Below, piece after piece: positions 5,554 to 16,824 of a stretch of DNA of 64,000 nucleotides. Each line of letters starts with the position of its first letter. Positions within the stretch are counted from its first letter, which is position 1. The position numbers and the translations under genes are program-made. The notes beneath the pieces were generated by a model. That model was given only the letters and a program-made list of their open reading frames with translations, had not been told where the DNA came from and ran no database searches. Source of the DNA: Nitrospinaceae bacterium (GTDB lineage: Bacteria; Nitrospinota; Nitrospinia; Nitrospinales; Nitrospinaceae); contig JAJDBJ010000047.1 in the NCBI GenBank assembly GCA_029261395.1, positions 1 through 64,000 of the forward strand, in the 5' to 3' direction.

Positions 5554-5714
5554 ACACCCTCTCCCGGACAAACGAATTCCTTTGAAACTTGCCTTCTAAG
5601 GCTCGCCTGCAGGGTGCGGGGTTTACAATCCTTTTACCGGGATTTATCCTGAAGACAATTAAGATTACTTTCCCTGATAATGTTACCCAATATTTTTGTA
5701 TGAGGAGACGAGGT

Positions 5715-7211
5715 ATGAAGAGGCCCTTGGCTTGGACCGCAACGACTATTTTCATCCTGGGCATCGCAGGCAATGCGACTGCTGGAAATCTCAATGCCCT
5801 GATATCGACTAATTACCTGGTGTCCGCTGACGCTACGGAAACCTACAACCAAGGTGTTGAGCAGGCCAGGGAAGGGAAATACAACCGGGCTGAGCGTTTG
5901 TTCGAAAAGGCCCTGCAGAAAGATCCCAAGCATGTCGGCGCTCTCAGTTACCTGAGCCAGGTGTATGCCAGCAAAGGGCAATACAGCAGTGCCATCACAA
6001 CGGCTAAAAAGACGTTGCAGCTGGATCCCAATAATGAAGGGGCGAACCAGACTCTGGCGCGGATTTATGAAACCCGGAGTTCCTGGAAACAAATGATCGC
6101 GCCTTTGAACACCCTGACCCAAAACTACGGGCACAACGCACGATACCATGCCAAACTGGGTGAAGCGCATTACCGGCTCAAACACTATAAAGATGCGTCG
6201 GGCCCCCTGCAACAGGCGGTCAATCTAAATTCTACAGACTATACGTCCGCCTATCGCCTGGGTGAAGTGCAGGCCCGCATGGGAAATTATGAGAACGCGG
6301 TGGGCTATCTGGAACAGTCCATGAGTTCCGCACCTTCCCGCACCGTGAAGTATTACAACTTGGGTCTGGTCTACGGTTATCTGAAACGTCATGACGACGC
6401 CATCCGCTATTTCGAGATGGCTATCAATGAGCAGCCGGGACTCGCTGAGGCTTACTACAATATCGGCGCCATGTATCAAAACTCCGATCAATTGCAATCG
6501 GCCATCGAGAATTATGAGAAGGCTTTGAAACTTGATTCAAATATTGAGATGGCCTCCACCAATCTGGAATATCTGAAGGGTTACCTGGAGCGCCAGCAAA
6601 AACAGCAGGAAGCCGCGGGTTCAATGACTCTGGAGCAAACCACCACACCGGAAGAAACATTCGAGCCGAATGCAGAAGAAGCTCCGGCCATTGAGGAAGC
6701 TCCGATGGAATCTTTTGATGCCGTTCAGGAAGAAACCCCAGTAGAAGAGTCTTTCGATACGGCTGAAGAAGCTCCAACCGAAGAACCTGTCATGGAGACC
6801 GCTGAGGAAGCTCCGATTCAGGAATCTTTCGATACAGCAGAGGAGGCTCCGGCTGAGGAAATTGCGACGGAGTCCTTTGATACTTTTCAGGAAGAAACTC
6901 CAGCCGAGGAGACAGTAGAGTCTTTCGATACGGCTGAGGAATCTTTTGATACCGCAGTGGAATCTGGTGTAGAATCATCATCAGACGGTTCGGAATCTCC
7001 CGAAGTGACCCCTGTGGGCACCATGGAAGAGAACCCGGAAGTCACACCGATCGGCACGTCCGAAGATTCGTTTGAAACGAGCACCGGCACTGAGTCCGGT
7101 AGCGAAAATACCGAGGCAACGGTTGAAGAACCGACTACCGAGGAGCCCTCAACCGAACCTGGTTTCGAAGATGCAGTCGATGCCAATGATTACTCGTTCA
7201 GAAACTTTTGA
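5715..7211 (+). CDS. Exported TPR protein with acidic repetitive tail
   Basis: A 498-residue protein of unknown role. The start at ATG 5715 is supported by AGGAG seven bases upstream and by a signal peptide (RPLAWTATTIFILGIAGNATA). Residues about 40-300 form around seven TPR units (for example AEAYYNIGAMYQNSDQLQSA). From about residue 310 the sequence is almost free of hydrophobic folds and rich in E, P, T and S, with the degenerate unit ESFDTAEEAPxEE recurring roughly seven times, encoded by an irregular minisatellite at about 6655-6960. Such tails are often disordered spacers or binding surfaces. pyrF follows after 10 bases, so co-transcription is likely. An upstream in-frame extension to 5589 lacks a ribosome site. 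Confidence 0.85.
   Translation: MKRPLAWTATTIFILGIAGNATAGNLNALISTNYLVSADATETYNQGVEQAREGKYNRAERLFEKALQKDPKHVGALSYLSQVYASKGQYSSAITTAKKTLQLDPNNEGANQTLARIYETRSSWKQMIAPLNTLTQNYGHNARYHAKLGEAHYRLKHYKDASGPLQQAVNLNSTDYTSAYRLGEVQARMGNYENAVGYLEQSMSSAPSRTVKYYNLGLVYGYLKRHDDAIRYFEMAINEQPGLAEAYYNIGAMYQNSDQLQSAIENYEKALKLDSNIEMASTNLEYLKGYLERQQKQQEAAGSMTLEQTTTPEETFEPNAEEAPAIEEAPMESFDAVQEETPVEESFDTAEEAPTEEPVMETAEEAPIQESFDTAEEAPAEEIATESFDTFQEETPAEETVESFDTAEESFDTAVESGVESSSDGSESPEVTPVGTMEENPEVTPIGTSEDSFETSTGTESGSENTEATVEEPTTEEPSTEPGFEDAVDANDYSFRNF
6655..6960 (+). repeat. Degenerate coding minisatellite in TPR-protein tail
   Basis: Units encoding SFDTAEEAPxEE and close variants recur in the 3' third of the TPR gene, at roughly 40-80 base spacing with many silent and replacement differences. 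The divergence implies an old expansion rather than a recent slippage array. Confidence 0.6.
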
Positions 7212-7221
7212 TGATTAAGAT

Positions 7222-7959
7222 ATGACTGGTCTCAAAGACCCAAAATCCCGCCTCATCTTTGCCTTGGACGTTCCAAGTCTGGATGAGGCGGTTTCTTTTG
7301 TCCAAAAGCTGGGCGGTTCCGTCGGCATGTTCAAAGTGGGATTGGAGCTATTCATCAAGGAAGGCCCTGCTGTTCTCACTGCCATCAGGGACCACAGCGA
7401 CGCCGAAATCTTTCTCGACCTCAAACTGCACGATATCCCCGCCACTGTTGAAAGAGCCGTTCAATCCGCCGCCGCCCACAACGTCCGTTTCCTGACCGTG
7501 CATTGCGCGGGAGGCGAGGCGATGCTGAAAGCCGCCGTCAACGGTGCCGGCAACTCCGGCTTGCAGATTCTGGGAGTCACCGTGCTCACCAACCTGGGAC
7601 CCGACGACCATCGAGAAGAGCTGGGTTACCGGAAAGATTTAACCTTGAAAGATCTGTCGGTCACCCGCTCCGGGATAGCCAAAACAGCAGGATGTGCCGG
7701 GGTGATCTGTTCCGGACTGGAGGTCGTTGCCATCCGCGAGAACTTTAACGATTTACTGACCGTGGTCCCCGGAATCCGCCAGAATAAAAATGGAATGGGC
7801 GGCGACGATCAGAAACGGGTGATAACTCCCAAGCGAGCCATCCAGGCCGGTGCCGACTATCTGGTGGTGGGGCGTCCCATTCGCGATGCGTCCGACCCCA
7901 AAGCGGCGGCGCAACGCATCGTGCAGGAAATTTCCGAAGCGCTCTCCGACACAAAATAG
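7222..7959 (+). CDS. pyrF: Orotidine-5'-phosphate decarboxylase
   Basis: Converts OMP to UMP, the last step of de novo pyrimidine synthesis, in the cytoplasm. The 245-residue length and TIM-barrel motifs are those of the bacterial type 1 family: LIFALDVPS at the N-terminus, the catalytic FLDLKLHDIPATV with the Asp-Lys-Asp network, TVHCAGG, VVPGIR, and the phosphate-binding ADYLVVGRPI near the end. It starts ten bases after the TPR gene and is followed by a DUF4149 gene after 41 bases. No other pyr gene is in the window. Confidence 0.97.
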   Translation: MTGLKDPKSRLIFALDVPSLDEAVSFVQKLGGSVGMFKVGLELFIKEGPAVLTAIRDHSDAEIFLDLKLHDIPATVERAVQSAAAHNVRFLTVHCAGGEAMLKAAVNGAGNSGLQILGVTVLTNLGPDDHREELGYRKDLTLKDLSVTRSGIAKTAGCAGVICSGLEVVAIRENFNDLLTVVPGIRQNKNGMGGDDQKRVITPKRAIQAGADYLVVGRPIRDASDPKAAAQRIVQEISEALSDTK

Positions 7960-8000
7960 TTCTACCCTCTCCCGACCTCCTTCGTTTATGATGGGCCGCT

Positions 8001-8453
8001 ATGGTCACCTTGATCCATTTCATACATTTGCTCAGTTTGGTTATGTGGATGGGGAGTATTATTTTTTTCTCCTTCTTCGCCGCGCCGGTGGTGTTTCGCC
8101 TGCTCGACCGGCAAAAGGCCGGTGAAGTGGTGGGCGCGATTTTTCCGAAATATTACGGCCTCGGTTATATTTGCAGTGTGCTGGCCGCCGCCACGCTGAT
8201 GCTCAGCCCGCGCGGGATGGAAGGTCCGCCTCTGATATTTCTCACCATCATGGCGGCTTGTACGTTTTATGCAGGACTGGTCATCAACCCGCAGGCACGG
8301 GCGCTCAAACAACAAATGCAGGAGCAACCGGAAACCCGCGAAACCCTGGAACCGCAATTCAAATCCCTGCATGGATGGTCGGTCCGTCTCAACGCCACCG
8401 TATTGATTTTCGGGCTGGGTCTGCTGTGGACCACTGCCATGCGCTTGATGTAA
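8001..8453 (+). CDS. DUF4149 (TMEM205-like) four-helix membrane protein
   Basis: A 150-residue integral membrane protein. Four hydrophobic segments are seen: about residues 3-28 (IHFIHLLSLVMWMGSIIFF), 50-68, 76-94 and 130-148. The opening H-x2-HLLSLVMWMGS and the central KYYGLGYI segment are typical of DUF4149. Its biochemical role is unknown in bacteria. The 41-base gap after pyrF and common direction suggest the same transcript. Confidence 0.8.
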   Translation: MVTLIHFIHLLSLVMWMGSIIFFSFFAAPVVFRLLDRQKAGEVVGAIFPKYYGLGYICSVLAAATLMLSPRGMEGPPLIFLTIMAACTFYAGLVINPQARALKQQMQEQPETRETLEPQFKSLHGWSVRLNATVLIFGLGLLWTTAMRLM

Positions 8454-9823: not shown

Positions 9824-11806
9824 ATGGATGTCGCCAAAATCAAAACCTATTTTGATAACGGAGGGGTGCTTTCCCAAAAACTGGGCTCCTTCGAGTTCCG
9901 CCCTCAACAGTTGGAAATGGCCGAGGCAGTGGCCGCTTCTCTGGAGGAAGGCCATCACCTGATGATTGAAGCGGGCACCGGAACCGGCAAAAGCCTGGCC
10001 TACCTGATCCCAGCGGTCTTGTGGGCTATAAAAAATGAAACCCGCGTCATCGTATCGACCTACACCAAAACCCTGCAGGAACAGATCGTGAACCAGGATA
10101 TCCCGTTTCTGCGCGAGGTGCTGGGACTGCCGTTCAGATACTCACTCTGCCTGGGAAGCGAAAATTACCTGTCTCTGCGGCGGATGAAACGAGCCAGCCA
10201 AACCCACCTGTTCGGTAATGTGGAAGAGGACGAACAACTGAACGAAGTTTTTGATTGGGCCGGCCGTACGGAATCCGGTTTCCGCAACGATCTGCCGTTC
10301 GAGCCTTCACCTGCCGTCTGGGAAGAAGTCGGGCGGCAAAAAGATTTGTGCATGGGCAAACAGTGCGAAACTTTCAATTCGTGTTTTTATTTTAAAGAGC
10401 GTCGCAAATGGTTCGGGGCGCATATCCTGATCGTCAACCATCACCTGTTCTTTGCCAATGTGGCCAACAGCGGCGCGGTGCTTCCCCGTTACGACGCGGT
10501 TATTTTCGACGAAGCGCAGAACCTGGAAGAGGCGGCTACTTCATTTCTGGGACTGAACGTTTCCAACTCCGGCTTGATCTATTTTCTCGACCGTCTTTAC
10601 AATGCCAAAACAAAACGCGGCACGCTGGCGCGTTTGCGCGATGATCTGACGATCGAAATCCAGCAGAGGGTGAGCAGGGTCCGGATCGCGGTGGAGGGAT
10701 TTTTTGAAAACCTGTTCGACGAATTCGGACGCAAAGAACGCACCCTGCGATTTTACAGTCCGCCCACTTTAAGCAACACGCTGTTCATTCCTTTACAGGA
10801 TCTGCATGAAGCGTTGAAAGCTCTCGAACACCGCGTCACCTCGGAAGAAGAACAACTCGAAGTCTCTGCGGCGGCCACCCGCGTGTTTGAATTCAACAAT
10901 ACCATTTCCGCTCTCCTGAACCAGAACATGAAGGAGTATGTCTACTGGCTGGAGGTGACGCCTAAAAAACGGTTCACCCGCGCCACCCTGCGGGGAATGC
11001 CCATCAACATCAGTGAGGAGCTACGCGAACAGGTGTTCTCCAAAATTGACCGGGCAGTTCTGACCTCCGCCACCTTGACCACCAACCGTAGTTTTGATCA
11101 TATGAAAGAACGCCTCGGGTGTACGCCGAAAGAGGAATCGACGCTGGACTCGCCTTTCGATTATACCCGCCAGGCTCTGCTGTATCTGCCGCAGGACATG
11201 CCGGAGCCGGGGGCGGAAGTAGCCCAATACGTTGCCGCACTGGCCGACCGTACGCTGGAGCTGATTCAGGCCACCGGAGGAAAAACATTTGTTCTGTTCA
11301 CCAGCTACGACATTCTCAACCGTATGTATAAAATTCTCGATCCCAAGCTCCACCAGTACCAGATACTCAAACAGGGCGAAATGGCACCCAGCCGGATGAT
11401 CCAGCGGTTCAAGGAAAAACCTTCGGTTATCTTCGGCACCAATTCGTTCTGGCAGGGGGTGGATATCCCCGGCGATGCGCTGTCGAGTGTTATCATCACC
11501 AAACTGCCGTTCGATGTTCCGAGCGAGCCGCTGACGGAAGCGCGCATTGAGGATATGAAAAAACGCTCCATCAACCCCTTCAAGCATTACCAGATACCGA
11601 GGGCGATCATTCAACTGCGTCAGGGGTTCGGCCGACTGATTCGCAAGCGTACCGACAAGGGAGTGGTGGCGATTCTTGATTCGCGTCTGACCCAACGCAG
11701 TTACGGCAAGCAGTTTTTAAAATCGCTTCCCGAATGCGCACAAACGCAAAATCTGGAGGATGTGAAAAAGTTTCTTTCCGATCGAACGGTCGCACCTGAA
11801 CTATAA
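9824..11806 (+). CDS. DinG/XPD-family ATP-dependent DNA helicase
   Basis: A 660-residue superfamily 2 helicase acting 5'-3' on DNA structures and R-loops in the DinG group. Walker A is MIEAGTGTGKSLAYL (about residues 46-60); Walker B is VIFDEAQNLEE, a DEAH variant. Four cysteines in the order C (YSLCLGS), then CMGKQC and SCFYF, fit the 4Fe-4S cluster that these helicases need. C-terminal motifs include VLTSATL, FGTNSFWQGVDIPG and QGFGRLIRKRTDKG. It lacks the 3'-5' exonuclease domain of Firmicutes DinG. It converges on the SIR2-like/TPR gene with 41 bases between stops. Confidence 0.92.
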   Translation: MDVAKIKTYFDNGGVLSQKLGSFEFRPQQLEMAEAVAASLEEGHHLMIEAGTGTGKSLAYLIPAVLWAIKNETRVIVSTYTKTLQEQIVNQDIPFLREVLGLPFRYSLCLGSENYLSLRRMKRASQTHLFGNVEEDEQLNEVFDWAGRTESGFRNDLPFEPSPAVWEEVGRQKDLCMGKQCETFNSCFYFKERRKWFGAHILIVNHHLFFANVANSGAVLPRYDAVIFDEAQNLEEAATSFLGLNVSNSGLIYFLDRLYNAKTKRGTLARLRDDLTIEIQQRVSRVRIAVEGFFENLFDEFGRKERTLRFYSPPTLSNTLFIPLQDLHEALKALEHRVTSEEEQLEVSAAATRVFEFNNTISALLNQNMKEYVYWLEVTPKKRFTRATLRGMPINISEELREQVFSKIDRAVLTSATLTTNRSFDHMKERLGCTPKEESTLDSPFDYTRQALLYLPQDMPEPGAEVAQYVAALADRTLELIQATGGKTFVLFTSYDILNRMYKILDPKLHQYQILKQGEMAPSRMIQRFKEKPSVIFGTNSFWQGVDIPGDALSSVIITKLPFDVPSEPLTEARIEDMKKRSINPFKHYQIPRAIIQLRQGFGRLIRKRTDKGVVAILDSRLTQRSYGKQFLKSLPECAQTQNLEDVKKFLSDRTVAPEL

Positions 11807-11847: not shown

Positions 11848-14799
11848 TTACGCGTTGGCGGGCTTGGTTGCCTCGCCGGGGGACGGAGCAGGCGCGCTAT
11901 TGTCGGCAGGCATGGCAATTTCCTTCTCAACTTTTTTCGGCTCTTCTTTCGGCTCCTCCACAACGGGCATCAGGTTTTTAAACCATTTGGATTCACGCAC
12001 CGAGGCAAACAGGCTTTCCTCACTGAGGACATCTGCTTCAGGAAGAACATTGTGTTCCTGGCACCGTTCCAGCCATTGACGGCAACCTGTTTCGTTCGCC
12101 AATTGGGCCTGGAGCCTCGCCATGTTATAACACCCGGCACCGGGTTGGTATTCCTCGGCTTTTTGAAGTACTCCCTTCGCTTCGGCCAACAAAGGATGCG
12201 CATCAATACCCCGCTTGCTTTTCGCCTGGGCAATCAAAGCTTCTCCCATCATGCTGAGGGCTTCGGGATTGTTCTCCTCAATCTCAATGGCGGCCTGAAA
12301 GGAATTTACCGCTTTATTCAGCAGGGAAGCGACCTTGTCTGGCTTTTCATCCTTGGATCGTTTCAACAGAATCGAGCCGTAATTACTCAAGGCAGTAGCA
12401 TCATTGGGATGAATTTTCAGGGCCTCCGAATATTTCTTTTCAGCCTGGTCATACAGGTCCTGTTCCGTACCATCTGACTTGAGAGTCGCCAACCGGAATA
12501 GTGCATTGCCCCACAACATGATGGCCCGACTGTAATCCGACTTGATCTTCAGGGCGCCTTGATATTTCTCAATAGAGGCCTGAACCAGATTTTCCGCTTC
12601 CTTGCCTTTTTTGAAGGTGGAAATACGGTAATAAATTTCACCCACCTGGGAAAGAACCTTATAGTTTTTGGGTTGTAACTTTATCAAGTCATGAAAATGG
12701 TCCACGGCTTTGGAGTACAGGGTCTCCGCATTGGATCCCTTATGATTGTTCGCCAATTCAAAGTACACGAGACCCAGGCGATTCAGGGTATCAATACTTT
12801 TTGGGGTTCGCTGGAGGGCTTTATTAAATTTTGATGCGGCATCCTTGAGCAAACCGATGGCTTCGTCACCGGATTTTTTCATCGCCATATTGTATTGCCC
12901 CACCGCCCAACGGTAATTCACGCGGGGCATGTCCGGCTTGAGATTTAAAACTTCCTGATATTTTTCGAATGCCTTGTTGAAAAACCGGTCAGACGCCGCA
13001 TCATTTTTCAATGTGGCGCGTTCCATCAAAACGTCGGCCCACCCGAAATGCGCTTCGGCCAGTGCGGCATCCACCTGTACCGCTTGCTGAAATTTTTCTT
13101 CAGCCATCATCAGAAAGCGATCGACGTCATCCCCTTTTTTGATTTTGGAAAGAATAAAGAGCGCTTGCCCCATTTCCACCATGGCTTCCTTGCGATCCGG
13201 GTTGCCATGCAAGGCGATTTTAAACATTTCCACCGCTTGGGTGTATCGTTGTACGGCTTCGGCCCCTCTCTTGCGGCGTCCTTGAGAAAGCAACACATGG
13301 CCCGCTCCATAAGCGGCCTCCGGATGATTGGGTTGGACACGGAGACCCTCTTGAAATTGTTTTGCGGCCGACTCGTACAGCTGATCCGATTCCGGGTCGG
13401 TTTTGGTGCCGGCCAATTCTGTAAGCACTATACCCAGCTCGTAACTGGCTTCAAAAAAATCGGGGTTCAATTCGATAGCCTGCTTGAATTGTTGAGCTCC
13501 CTGCTCCAGCAAATCGGTCGTATTTTCATCAGATTGAATTTTAGTCTGCTCGACCAACGACTGACCCAGTTTGAAATAAGCTTGAGCGGCATCCGGTCTG
13601 ATCTGAAGGGCCTTTTCATAATGAGACTGGGCCTCCTTTAGTTTTTCCAGGGCTTTTGGACCGAACAGTTTTTTAGCTTCTTCAACGGCAGAGTCTCCTT
13701 CCACCTGATAGGCCCAGTTCAACAGATGTCCCAACTGAACAGAAGGTGTCTCTTCAAATTGCGGGTGTTGCTCGATAATTTTCTTCGGATTCCCCGCCAT
13801 CAAACCAGTGCGCGCGACCTGAATGGCTTTCAATAAATCTGGATCATCCACCCCGCCTGCCGCCTCGTCATCGCCTCCAATATCGCGGCCCCGTTCCGGG
13901 CCTTCATACTGCTGGATGGCCGCTTTCGTCTGCTTGAGGGAAATATCCGCTATATTCAATCCGTCTTTTTGACCGGGTGCCGGGTAGTCAGCCACTTTAT
14001 TCAACCAGTGGCCTAAAAATGTAAACGGGTAACCGATGAGTTCGGGGATGCCGATCTTCATCATGCGAATCATAGTAACCAGAAAGGTGTCCGGATCATC
14101 GGAATGGGTGTAATGATTATTCGTCTTGGAAAAAACCTGTTCCTGAAGAAACCGCGCCGGAGTCTGGCTTCCCGAAAATACCCAAAGCAATCCTTTAGAA
14201 ATGTTGTCGAGCCAGGCGATCTGTTCGTAAACCGGATCCTCGGGATCGGGGTTATATCCCAGTACCAGCCAGGGACCACTGCGTCCCGCACTGGAAAACA
14301 CACTCTCCAGAGCATTGGGCGTCGCACCCAGAACCTGGCCGTTCAGATGAACGATCGACTTGGGAGGCATCAAATCCGACTTGGTGAGGGTTCCTACCGT
14401 ACAGTCATAAACGGCCGGAAACTCTCCCACTAAAGCACAGGCCCTCTCCAAAAGAGGGTCGTGGCAGGTGGTATATACCCGGCTCAAAAACCCCTCTTTC
14501 ATGAGCAGAGCGATACATAAATGCGCCCAACTGACTTTTGATTTTCGTAGATAAAAATTGAATATCTCGTATTTCTGAGTGATGGTCAATTCCGCCGCGC
14601 AATGTCGGAGGTCCTTGGCGCGAGCGTGTTCGTAGGCCTGAGGATAACTTTTTTTGATTGCCGCAACCCATTCAGCCGCTGTAGGCATCCCGGCACGCAG
14701 AGAGCACTCCTCGCCCATCAACAGGATAGCCCCGTTTTTCTCCATCTTGGATTCAAACAGGCGGTCGGCAAATTTATTTATGGAATCAGAATACTGCAT
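11848..14799 (-). CDS. SIR2-like Rossmann domain fused to long TPR array
   Basis: A 983-residue cytoplasmic protein. Residues about 15-235 resemble the SIR2-like domain of bacterial defence and STAND-type proteins: ILLMGEECSLRAGMP in place of GAGxSxxAGxP, VYTTCHDPLLERA in place of TTNYDxLLE, IVHLNGQV in place of xxLHG, and WLVLGYNPDPEDP in place of a GxS-type motif. By eye the catalytic Asn (position 112) is Cys and the catalytic His (position 153) is Asn, so NAD hydrolysis is doubtful. From about residue 370 to 900 there are some eleven TPR units of unusually long period, about 45-50 residues. The end is low-complexity (EEPKEEPKKVEKE, then proline/alanine). ATG 14799 is chosen over TTG 14814. 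The phenotype is unknown. Confidence 0.75.
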   Translation of the reverse strand: MQYSDSINKFADRLFESKMEKNGAILLMGEECSLRAGMPTAAEWVAAIKKSYPQAYEHARAKDLRHCAAELTITQKYEIFNFYLRKSKVSWAHLCIALLMKEGFLSRVYTTCHDPLLERACALVGEFPAVYDCTVGTLTKSDLMPPKSIVHLNGQVLGATPNALESVFSSAGRSGPWLVLGYNPDPEDPVYEQIAWLDNISKGLLWVFSGSQTPARFLQEQVFSKTNNHYTHSDDPDTFLVTMIRMMKIGIPELIGYPFTFLGHWLNKVADYPAPGQKDGLNIADISLKQTKAAIQQYEGPERGRDIGGDDEAAGGVDDPDLLKAIQVARTGLMAGNPKKIIEQHPQFEETPSVQLGHLLNWAYQVEGDSAVEEAKKLFGPKALEKLKEAQSHYEKALQIRPDAAQAYFKLGQSLVEQTKIQSDENTTDLLEQGAQQFKQAIELNPDFFEASYELGIVLTELAGTKTDPESDQLYESAAKQFQEGLRVQPNHPEAAYGAGHVLLSQGRRKRGAEAVQRYTQAVEMFKIALHGNPDRKEAMVEMGQALFILSKIKKGDDVDRFLMMAEEKFQQAVQVDAALAEAHFGWADVLMERATLKNDAASDRFFNKAFEKYQEVLNLKPDMPRVNYRWAVGQYNMAMKKSGDEAIGLLKDAASKFNKALQRTPKSIDTLNRLGLVYFELANNHKGSNAETLYSKAVDHFHDLIKLQPKNYKVLSQVGEIYYRISTFKKGKEAENLVQASIEKYQGALKIKSDYSRAIMLWGNALFRLATLKSDGTEQDLYDQAEKKYSEALKIHPNDATALSNYGSILLKRSKDEKPDKVASLLNKAVNSFQAAIEIEENNPEALSMMGEALIAQAKSKRGIDAHPLLAEAKGVLQKAEEYQPGAGCYNMARLQAQLANETGCRQWLERCQEHNVLPEADVLSEESLFASVRESKWFKNLMPVVEEPKEEPKKVEKEIAMPADNSAPAPSPGEATKPANA

Positions 14800-15441
14800 G
14801 AAACTCGAAAACAAGAACAGGGTTGATCAACTCTTCCTGAAACCTTTCAGAAAGCTTTATGCATTTTTGAACTCTGAAACACCCTTCTCCCAATGGACGC
14901 GCCAGGGAGAAAGTTCCAGATTTAGAGCGGCTCACATAGGGCCGATCCCCATTCGATTTTCTGAAGGAAACCTAGCTGTTGAAGGCTCTCAATCAGAATA
15001 ATTTACACTAACTTAGAATATTATTATGATAACAGGAGGGAGAATAATATCAAGCAGTTATATAGCGCTGAATGGCAGGCAAAGCCTTGATAATAGGGCA
15101 AGCAGAGGACTTGAGGCGTGTCCGCCCCTAAAGCCCTGTAAATTCAACCCTTCCGCCCTGTTCCTTTGAAATCCCCCTTCCGATAGCAAATCGAGCACTG
15201 GCCATTATTTGAATTCCAATGACGCGGCTTTTTTTGCAGGAATCTACGGTTCCTGAGAAATATCCCCCGATTCTCTGTAACCATTCGGGAAAATATCCAT
15301 CCAAACCCTAATGAAGAGTGATGGGGCCAAACCACAGGGCCTGCCTCTGGCCAAAGGACGTGGAACAAGGCTGGTTTGATCTTGCGTTTCAAGTATAATT
15401 AAGGGAAATTACCCCATACCCGGAAGGCCGATAGAATTGCT
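14800..15441. other. 642-base gap with one good -10 box
   Basis: No credible gene. Short open frames on both strands match no family. A perfect TATAAT sits at 15394-15399, 43 bases before the DUF2786-like ATG. Otherwise nothing recognisable. Confidence 0.5.
15394..15399 (+). promoter_or_regulatory. TATAAT -10 box for the DUF2786-like gene
   Basis: Perfect -10 hexamer. The best -35 candidate, TGGTTT at 15372-15377 with 16-base spacing, is weak, so this may rely on other contacts. Confidence 0.4.
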
Positions 15442-15878: not shown

Positions 15879-16325
15879 ATGCAATCCAAATGGGTCACTA
15901 TCGCTTCGTTCAACATGCCGTACCAGGCTCATCTCGCGAAATCGCGTCTGGAGGCGGCGGACATTCCGGTCACCATCCGCGATGAACACCTCATCAGCAT
16001 GAATCAATTCTACTCCCCGGCGCTGGGCGGCGTGAAAATCCAGGTGCTGACCGCCAACATGAAAGAGGCGCAGGATATTCTCGACTCGGTACCCGACGTT
16101 GAACTGAAAGATGAAGAAGCGTTATCCGCCACGATGCCCGAAGAGCCCGGCCCACGTCCTGCGGAGTCGATCGAATGCCCGCACTGCGGCAGTGAAGGTT
16201 TTGCGGTGGAACTGCACTATCCGGTCGAACGGTTCCTCAACGGATTACTGCTGGGATTGCCCTACTTATGGATAGGACGCCCCCTGCATTGCCGCGCCTG
16301 CGACCACACTTTTCGCGCCCAGTAA
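15879..16325 (+). CDS. DUF2007 protein with C-terminal zinc ribbon (copy 1)
   Basis: A 148-residue protein. Residues 4-65 (VTIASFNMPYQAHLAKSRLE, then IPVTIRDE and VKIQVLTAN) are a DUF2007 'putative signal transducing' domain, a small ferredoxin-like fold. The C-terminal half has CPHCG and CRACD pairs spaced for a zinc ribbon. Role unknown. The following gene is a diverged tandem copy with the same two-part layout. Confidence 0.78.
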   Translation: MQSKWVTIASFNMPYQAHLAKSRLEAADIPVTIRDEHLISMNQFYSPALGGVKIQVLTANMKEAQDILDSVPDVELKDEEALSATMPEEPGPRPAESIECPHCGSEGFAVELHYPVERFLNGLLLGLPYLWIGRPLHCRACDHTFRAQ

Positions 16326-16368
16326 ACCCTCGCTTCACCCGCTGGCTTTTTTGTCATACACTGACGAC

Positions 16369-16824
16369 ATGAACAATCGATTCGTCACCATCGCCAGCTT
16401 TCATATGCCGCACGACGCCGAAGTGGCCGCGTCCTTCCTGGAGGAAAAAGGCATCCCGACCATGATTCGCGACGACAACACCAATCCCATGGGAGGAGGA
16501 ATGGTGGAAATCCGCCTGCAGGTGCCGGAACAGGAGGCCGATAACGCTCTCGATTTTTTGGATGCAATGATGGAGGAAGGAGTCGACCTGCTGGAAGATA
16601 TCGAAGAGAATTATGAAAATGAAACAACGAAAGAAACCGAGCCATCTTGGAAAGAGGCGGACACCGAAACGGTGGTCTGCCCGCGATGCCTCAGTATCAA
16701 CGCGCACAAAACCCTGCCCGGCCCGGTGCCCGGCTGGCTGAATGCCAGCCTGCTCGGAATTCCCGGCCTGTTCTTTCCCGCAAAACTCCAATGCCGGGGA
16801 TGCGGCGCTGTCTTCAAACGATAA
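16369..16824 (+). CDS. DUF2007 protein with C-terminal zinc ribbon (copy 2)
   Basis: A 151-residue paralogue of the preceding protein: FVTIASFHMPHDAEVAASFL, IPTMIRDDN, an acidic linker (EDIEENYENETTKE), then CPRC and CRGCG zinc-ribbon pairs. Both copies share a hydrophobic stretch before the last Cys pair (LNASLLGIPGLFF here, LNGLLLGLPYLWI in copy 1), which could be a short membrane-associated segment. ATG 16369 is chosen over the upstream TTG. Its stop lies four bases from the argJ stop on the other strand. Confidence 0.78.
   Translation: MNNRFVTIASFHMPHDAEVAASFLEEKGIPTMIRDDNTNPMGGGMVEIRLQVPEQEADNALDFLDAMMEEGVDLLEDIEENYENETTKETEPSWKEADTETVVCPRCLSINAHKTLPGPVPGWLNASLLGIPGLFFPAKLQCRGCGAVFKR

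Follow-up and report, generated by a model that had tools for sequence, protein, structure and literature searches.

Stepwise loss of the Asn-His dyad in a SIR2-TPR protein of Nitrospinota that is probably kept as a scaffold

Sirtuins are generally described by three motifs, GAGxS, TTNxD and xLHG. Of the SIR2 proteins compared here, ThsA of Thoeris carries a C-terminal SLOG domain. For SPARSA, the excerpts drawn on from the structure paper state that changing N142 or H186 to alanine abolishes NADase activity, and that G25/A26 contact the pyrophosphate through their main chain (PMC10781750). In excerpts of two papers on DSR2, N133 and H171 play the same part as the SPARSA dyad (PMC10981675, PMC11263360), and in those of the first of them the His mutant still binds NAD (PMC10981675). 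Here we describe a protein of the same fold, encoded in the window (the whole stretch of 64,000 nucleotides that was analysed, from a 2.9 Mb Nitrospinaceae genome), in which both residues of the dyad have been replaced.

The gene is a minus-strand open reading frame (11848-14799, ATG at 14799) with orthologues in related genomes, and its product of 983 aa (P0001) runs from an N-terminal SIR2-fold domain through a linker and eleven full TPR units to a cap. All of the following segments lie on the minus strand. The SIR2-fold domain takes up residues 1-262 (14014-14799) and the linker residues 263-353 (13741-14013), with a low-confidence stretch at about residues 310-320 in the full-length model; the helical TPR array covers residues 354-899 (12103-13740). 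A conserved C-terminal cap, seen in alignment A4 (residues 900-945, NETGCRQWLE...SVRESKWFK; 11965-12102), matches NF047558 below that model's cut-off and is followed by a predicted disordered tail with pLDDT under 50 (residues 946-983; 11851-11964). In the full-length model (pLDDT 86.9, pTM 0.56) the repeats form a regular helical array.

The initial annotation had taken the N-terminal domain for a SIR2 relative with three altered motifs, and these were found as placed: GEECS replacing GAGxS (residues 29-33; 14701-14715), TTCHD replacing TTNxD (residues 110-114; 14458-14472) and HLNG replacing HLHG (residues 151-154; 14338-14349). The window protein itself has no PF13289 or PF02146 match in Pfam at E up to 10; its first 300 residues gave nothing convincing there, TPR-type repeats being the sole matches of the whole protein, and phmmer with the SIR2 domain returned no match among solved structures. 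PADLOC reported short, weak matches to pAgo-associated SIR2 models, covering part of the domain. An AlphaFold2 model of the domain (mean pLDDT 82, pTM 0.81), compared using VIA-align, has its best structural match in the SPARSA SIR2 (Z 21.9 over 249 residues) and also matches DSR2 (Z 17.4), BcThsA (17.1) and eukaryotic sirtuins (~17). A profile of the canonical orthologues matches the SPARSA SIR2 at 1.8e-13, and window columns 112 and 153 fall on SPARSA N142 and H186 by a correspondence counted along the printed profile alignment. The Pfam scan covered three orthologues from outside the window's family, of which two exceeded the SIR2_2 cut-off (PF13289, 24.5 bits; L036 34.2 and L041 26.0 bits) and the third the SIR2 cut-off (PF02146, 24 bits; L034 27.2 bits). 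Because orthologues of other families keep the motifs and pass the Pfam cut-offs, the window domain is itself homologous to SIR2, with a score of its own that has sunk below detection. As judged from its modelled SIR2 fold and the canonical motifs in matching orthologue columns, its motif likeness to SIR2 is no chance resemblance. Assignment to another Rossmann family had been named beforehand as the result that would count against this identification; that candidate is rejected, as the leading fold and profile matches are all SIR2. Elsewhere in the organism's own genome no SIR2_2 partner over threshold was found, and one SIR2-family (PF02146) gene lies on contig C80.

In the columns of the window's motifs, orthologues from other families read GAGCS, GSGCS or GGGCS, TTNFD, TTNYD or TVNFD (one TTSYD), and HLHG or YLHG. 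Among the ten genomes outside the window's family (f1), the His and a GAG, GSG or GGG are present in all ten and the Asn in nine, the one without it being L042, which has Ser. Within f1, the His153 position holds Asn or Lys in 12/12 genomes, divided in the window's genus into four with Asn and four with Lys. The Asn112 position is kept in all four genomes of two sister genera; the window's genus has Cys there in seven genomes and Ser in the eighth. The substitutions are thus fixed, as comparison with orthologues had been proposed to establish, with the His gone throughout the family and the Asn throughout the genus. At the third residue of GAG, 8/8 genus members have Glu, one sister genus has Gly and the second has Ala or Glu; position 30 is Glu, Asp or Tyr in the window's genus. 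The GYxG loop has changed to GYxPD or GYxPE; in the window, GYNPDPED replaces GYxGxxD in this second ribose/phosphate loop (residues 181-188; 14236-14259, minus strand). The pocket residues Gly29, Asp114 and Tyr182 have for the most part persisted in the genus, and Cys32 is invariant. The window protein therefore has none of three features of a SIR2 NADase: no GAGxS loop (GEECS), no catalytic Asn (Cys112) and no catalytic His (Asn153). Canonical Asn and His in shifted positions, which the initial annotation had raised against its own reading, were found in no orthologue of the alignment, and a shifted pair is rejected.

The window's family forms one clade (support 100/100); inside it, support is weak (78/75) for the order in which the two sister genera branch off. 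On this tree, loss of the His takes one change and loss of the Asn two, one in the window's genus and one in L042. Decay was stepwise, since the sister genera keep the Asn while the His is lost family-wide. The Ser at the catalytic Asn position of L042 (4361-7327) stands beside an Asn in its congener, a loss independent of the family's. L024 and L045 were left out of the tree and the full alignment, and L028 entered the alignments without its first residues. In this last, a member of the genus, some 20 codons are followed by an in-frame stop and directly by an ATG (2415-2504), which marks either a shortened form or an assembly error; in another, L080, a low-coverage assembly, the frame breaks near residue 263 (~2044-2078).

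For the SIR2 part, eight pairs from the window's genus give Nei-Gojobori dN/dS values of 0.08-0.19, two from sister genus g2 give 0.12 and 0.13, and two canonical pairs 0.12 and 0.16; the estimates are rough wherever dS exceeds 1, as it does in some. The decayed SIR2 domain is a fold maintained under purifying selection and no dead weight. Conservation of the pocket was assessed at fourteen NAD-contact positions, taken from excerpts of the SPARSA structure paper as the one source and mapped via the profile alignment. In eight canonical orthologues these positions exceed the remainder of the domain in conservation, at a marginal level (0.78 vs 0.64, p 0.044); neither the genus (0.78 vs 0.85) nor the family (0.64 vs 0.70) shows such an excess. 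Of 47 columns without variation in the canonical set, those in the motifs showed no excess of loss over the remainder (3/8 vs 12/39, Fisher p 0.70), so drift has affected the whole domain and not the active site alone. The canonical set of both tests excludes L042, which has Ser at the Asn position; L039, with a run of undetermined residues, is absent from the dN/dS estimates, alignments A1-A5 and the pocket test.

The usual length of a TPR unit is 34 residues. The initial annotation had counted eleven units of 45-50 residues and saw in them a hint of a distinct repeat class. The count stands, with eleven full two-helix units at residues 381-863 and a shortened twelfth reaching residue 899, but the length does not: self-similarity of the window protein peaks at lags 44, 88 and 132, giving a period of exactly 44 residues, and a peak at 44 recurs in six of six proteins tested. 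PF13414 matches the window protein in nine stretches (E 1e-40), and the array shows both the TPR profile and the helix pairs expected of TPRs. As the consensus TPR crystal structure superposes in full (272/272 target residues on 352 model residues, Z 22.5, rmsd 2.6), these are ordinary TPRs with longer helices, and the distinct class is rejected. With 30.3 bits, the match to the TPR-S 'sensor' profile PF20308 exceeds the cut-off of 27.6, in overlap with the generic TPR signal. A second TPR protein of the window (5589-7211, 540 aa), with units of ordinary length, adjoins an OMP decarboxylase gene.

A protein search over 61 genomes found SIR2-TPR matches in 23, and a profile search over 77 genomes of the phylum found matches in 29, with 22 genomes at E of 1e-100 or better. 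The gene is present in 12/12 genomes of the window's family and in ten genomes of families f2 and f4; several f2 genera are without it. One f2 genome, L045, encodes a shorter SIR2 and TPR protein with canonical motifs (6172-8103, 644 aa), whose best matches among defence models are pAgo-associated SIR2. Searches of phage records (50,697), of plasmid records (72,556) and, with a canonical orthologue as query, of viral contigs gave no SIR2-TPR match. The protein is best read as a chromosomal, vertically inherited Nitrospinota protein.

The neighbourhood links decayed and canonical forms. Convergent to the window's gene is that of a dinG-type helicase (9824-11806, plus strand), an arrangement that recurs in ten genomes (the window and nine others), three of them outside f1: the fully canonical L034 and L036, and L042, which carries Ser in place of the Asn; in L036 one ORF lies between the two genes. 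Since decayed and His-keeping orthologues have this locus in common, they are not unrelated paralogues. On its other side, the SIR2-TPR gene lies directly downstream of a gene for a CDP-alcohol phosphotransferase of ~430 aa in 12 of 21 testable genomes, in three families (read from coordinates; the contig of a 22nd ends there), and in G008 it overlaps that gene's stop codon. This neighbour has a C-terminal CDP-alcohol phosphatidyltransferase domain (PF01066) and is often preceded by a second such gene; tandem proteins of this kind were noted upstream of SIR2-TPR in L034, L036, L040, L032, L033, L035 and L043. Its best NCBIfam matches, far under their cut-offs, are inositol-phosphate cytidylyltransferase/phosphotransferase and archaetidylinositol phosphate synthase, and its N-terminal part we take by eye to be nucleotidyltransferase-like, without the usual glycine-rich loop. 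In the window, the corresponding site is an intergenic gap directly upstream of SIR2-TPR (14800-15441), and a search of it found no phosphotransferase remnant. In the window's genus, the gene is absent from this site in five of eight members (the window among them), with flanking genes in place; two retain it, and in one the contig ends. The two that keep it are already without Asn and His, so catalytic decay preceded its deletion. Ten flanking window genes were scanned and no Argonaute was found; the window also encodes two adjacent DUF2007 proteins (15879-16824) whose C-terminus is cysteine-rich and, by eye, zinc-ribbon-like.

We consider it probable, at roughly 0.7, that the protein is a pseudo-sirtuin, vertically inherited in Nitrospinota and kept as a TPR scaffold, which no longer hydrolyses NAD. 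A pseudoenzyme is most likely because the domain keeps its fold and stays under purifying selection, and both the loss of NADase activity and the scaffold role are the most likely interpretation of these findings. In its ancestor, a long TPR superhelix would have borne a SIR2 domain with the active site intact; the catalytic His went first, in the window's family, and in the window's genus the Asn went next, as did the final Gly of GAG. The dyad-less SIR2 module with its altered phosphate loop most likely acts as a folded module for oligomer contacts or partner binding and, together with the TPR superhelix, probably holds protein partners. The degenerate scaffold of the initial annotation thus survives as the best reading, and the NAD sensing suggested with it is weakened. 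A sensor whose pocket bound NAD or ADP-ribose without splitting it and signalled to the TPR arm is possible because the DSR2 His mutant, in the excerpts cited above, binds NAD, and the retained SIR2 fold, the mostly kept Tyr182, Gly29 and Asp114 and the PF20308 score agree with it. However, the residues matching the SPARSA pyrophosphate site G25/A26 are here Gly-Glu, followed by a Glu fixed in the genus, GYxG has been altered, and the pocket positions have lost their extra conservation, and we regard such a sensor as unlikely. A role as accessory to the CDP-alcohol phosphotransferase pathway encoded alongside in relatives, itself compatible with a scaffold, is suggested by the recurrent adjacency and the stop-codon overlap; it is nonetheless doubtful, in that most of the window's genus keeps SIR2-TPR without the upstream gene and many genomes have the phosphotransferase without SIR2-TPR.

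The fold of SPARSA, DSR2 and ThsA and the nearest profiles, those of pAgo-associated SIR2 defence models, would fit a former anti-phage abortive-infection gene decaying after domestication. Against such an origin, which we hold to be quite improbable, the gene is present throughout the family, often at a common locus, its dN/dS is low, phosphotransferases are frequent neighbours, and the phage, plasmid and viral-contig collections searched contain no match; the phosphotransferase setting and this absence disfavour a mobile defence gene. Less likely again is that in the window's genus the emptied pocket became a redox or metal switch that sets the shape of the TPR arm, formed by Cys112, which from sequence and homologous structures would lie near the Cys32 loop, and the new acidic residues at 30 and 31; if so, a sirtuin pocket would have been turned into a new regulatory site. 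The unrecognised active variant considered at the outset, in which other residues took over catalysis, could appeal to purifying selection on the SIR2 domain and to the prevalence of Cys112 in the genus. It is very improbable indeed, because closely related species differ in the replacing residues (Asn or Lys at the His position, Cys or Ser at the Asn position, Glu, Asp or Tyr at position 30), and the alignment holds no shifted pair.

These orthologues form a natural gradation, in part at a single locus: some have both Asn and His, others the Asn alone and others neither residue, and purifying selection acts on every stage. With canonical, intermediate and decayed members side by side, roles of SIR2 beyond NAD splitting become testable, in proteins that share their fold with the NADases of phage defence. 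The component parts are known; stepwise dyad loss in an orthologous series of SIR2_2-type domains was not found in the searches made of the open-licence literature and is apparently new, and searches of the same literature for pseudo-sirtuins, for TPR-S with Sir2 in conflict systems and for di-myo-inositol phosphate in Nitrospina likewise found none.

Compared with known systems, the TPR superhelix resembles those of OGT and of consensus TPRs (Z ~22), from which it differs in its 44-residue units, the extra length lying in longer helices. The noncanonical human sirtuins FAM118A/B, which match the canonical-orthologue profile weakly, have, according to excerpts of their description, a SIR2_2-type domain without a zinc module, as here, but keep His and Asn and process NAD (PMC12700824), whereas the window protein is without both residues. 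DSR2 and ThsA likewise have the SIR2 fold (Z ~17) and join an N-terminal SIR2 to a C-terminal sensing part; that part is HEAT repeats in the excerpts on DSR2 and SLOG in ThsA but TPRs in the window protein, whose dyad is lost and whose setting is not one of defence. Finally, the SIR2-APAZ protein of Geobacter SPARSA (PDB 8y80/8jl0) has the SIR2 fold in common with the window protein, which, unlike it, has neither an APAZ domain nor an Argonaute partner and carries Cys and Asn in place of N142 and H186.
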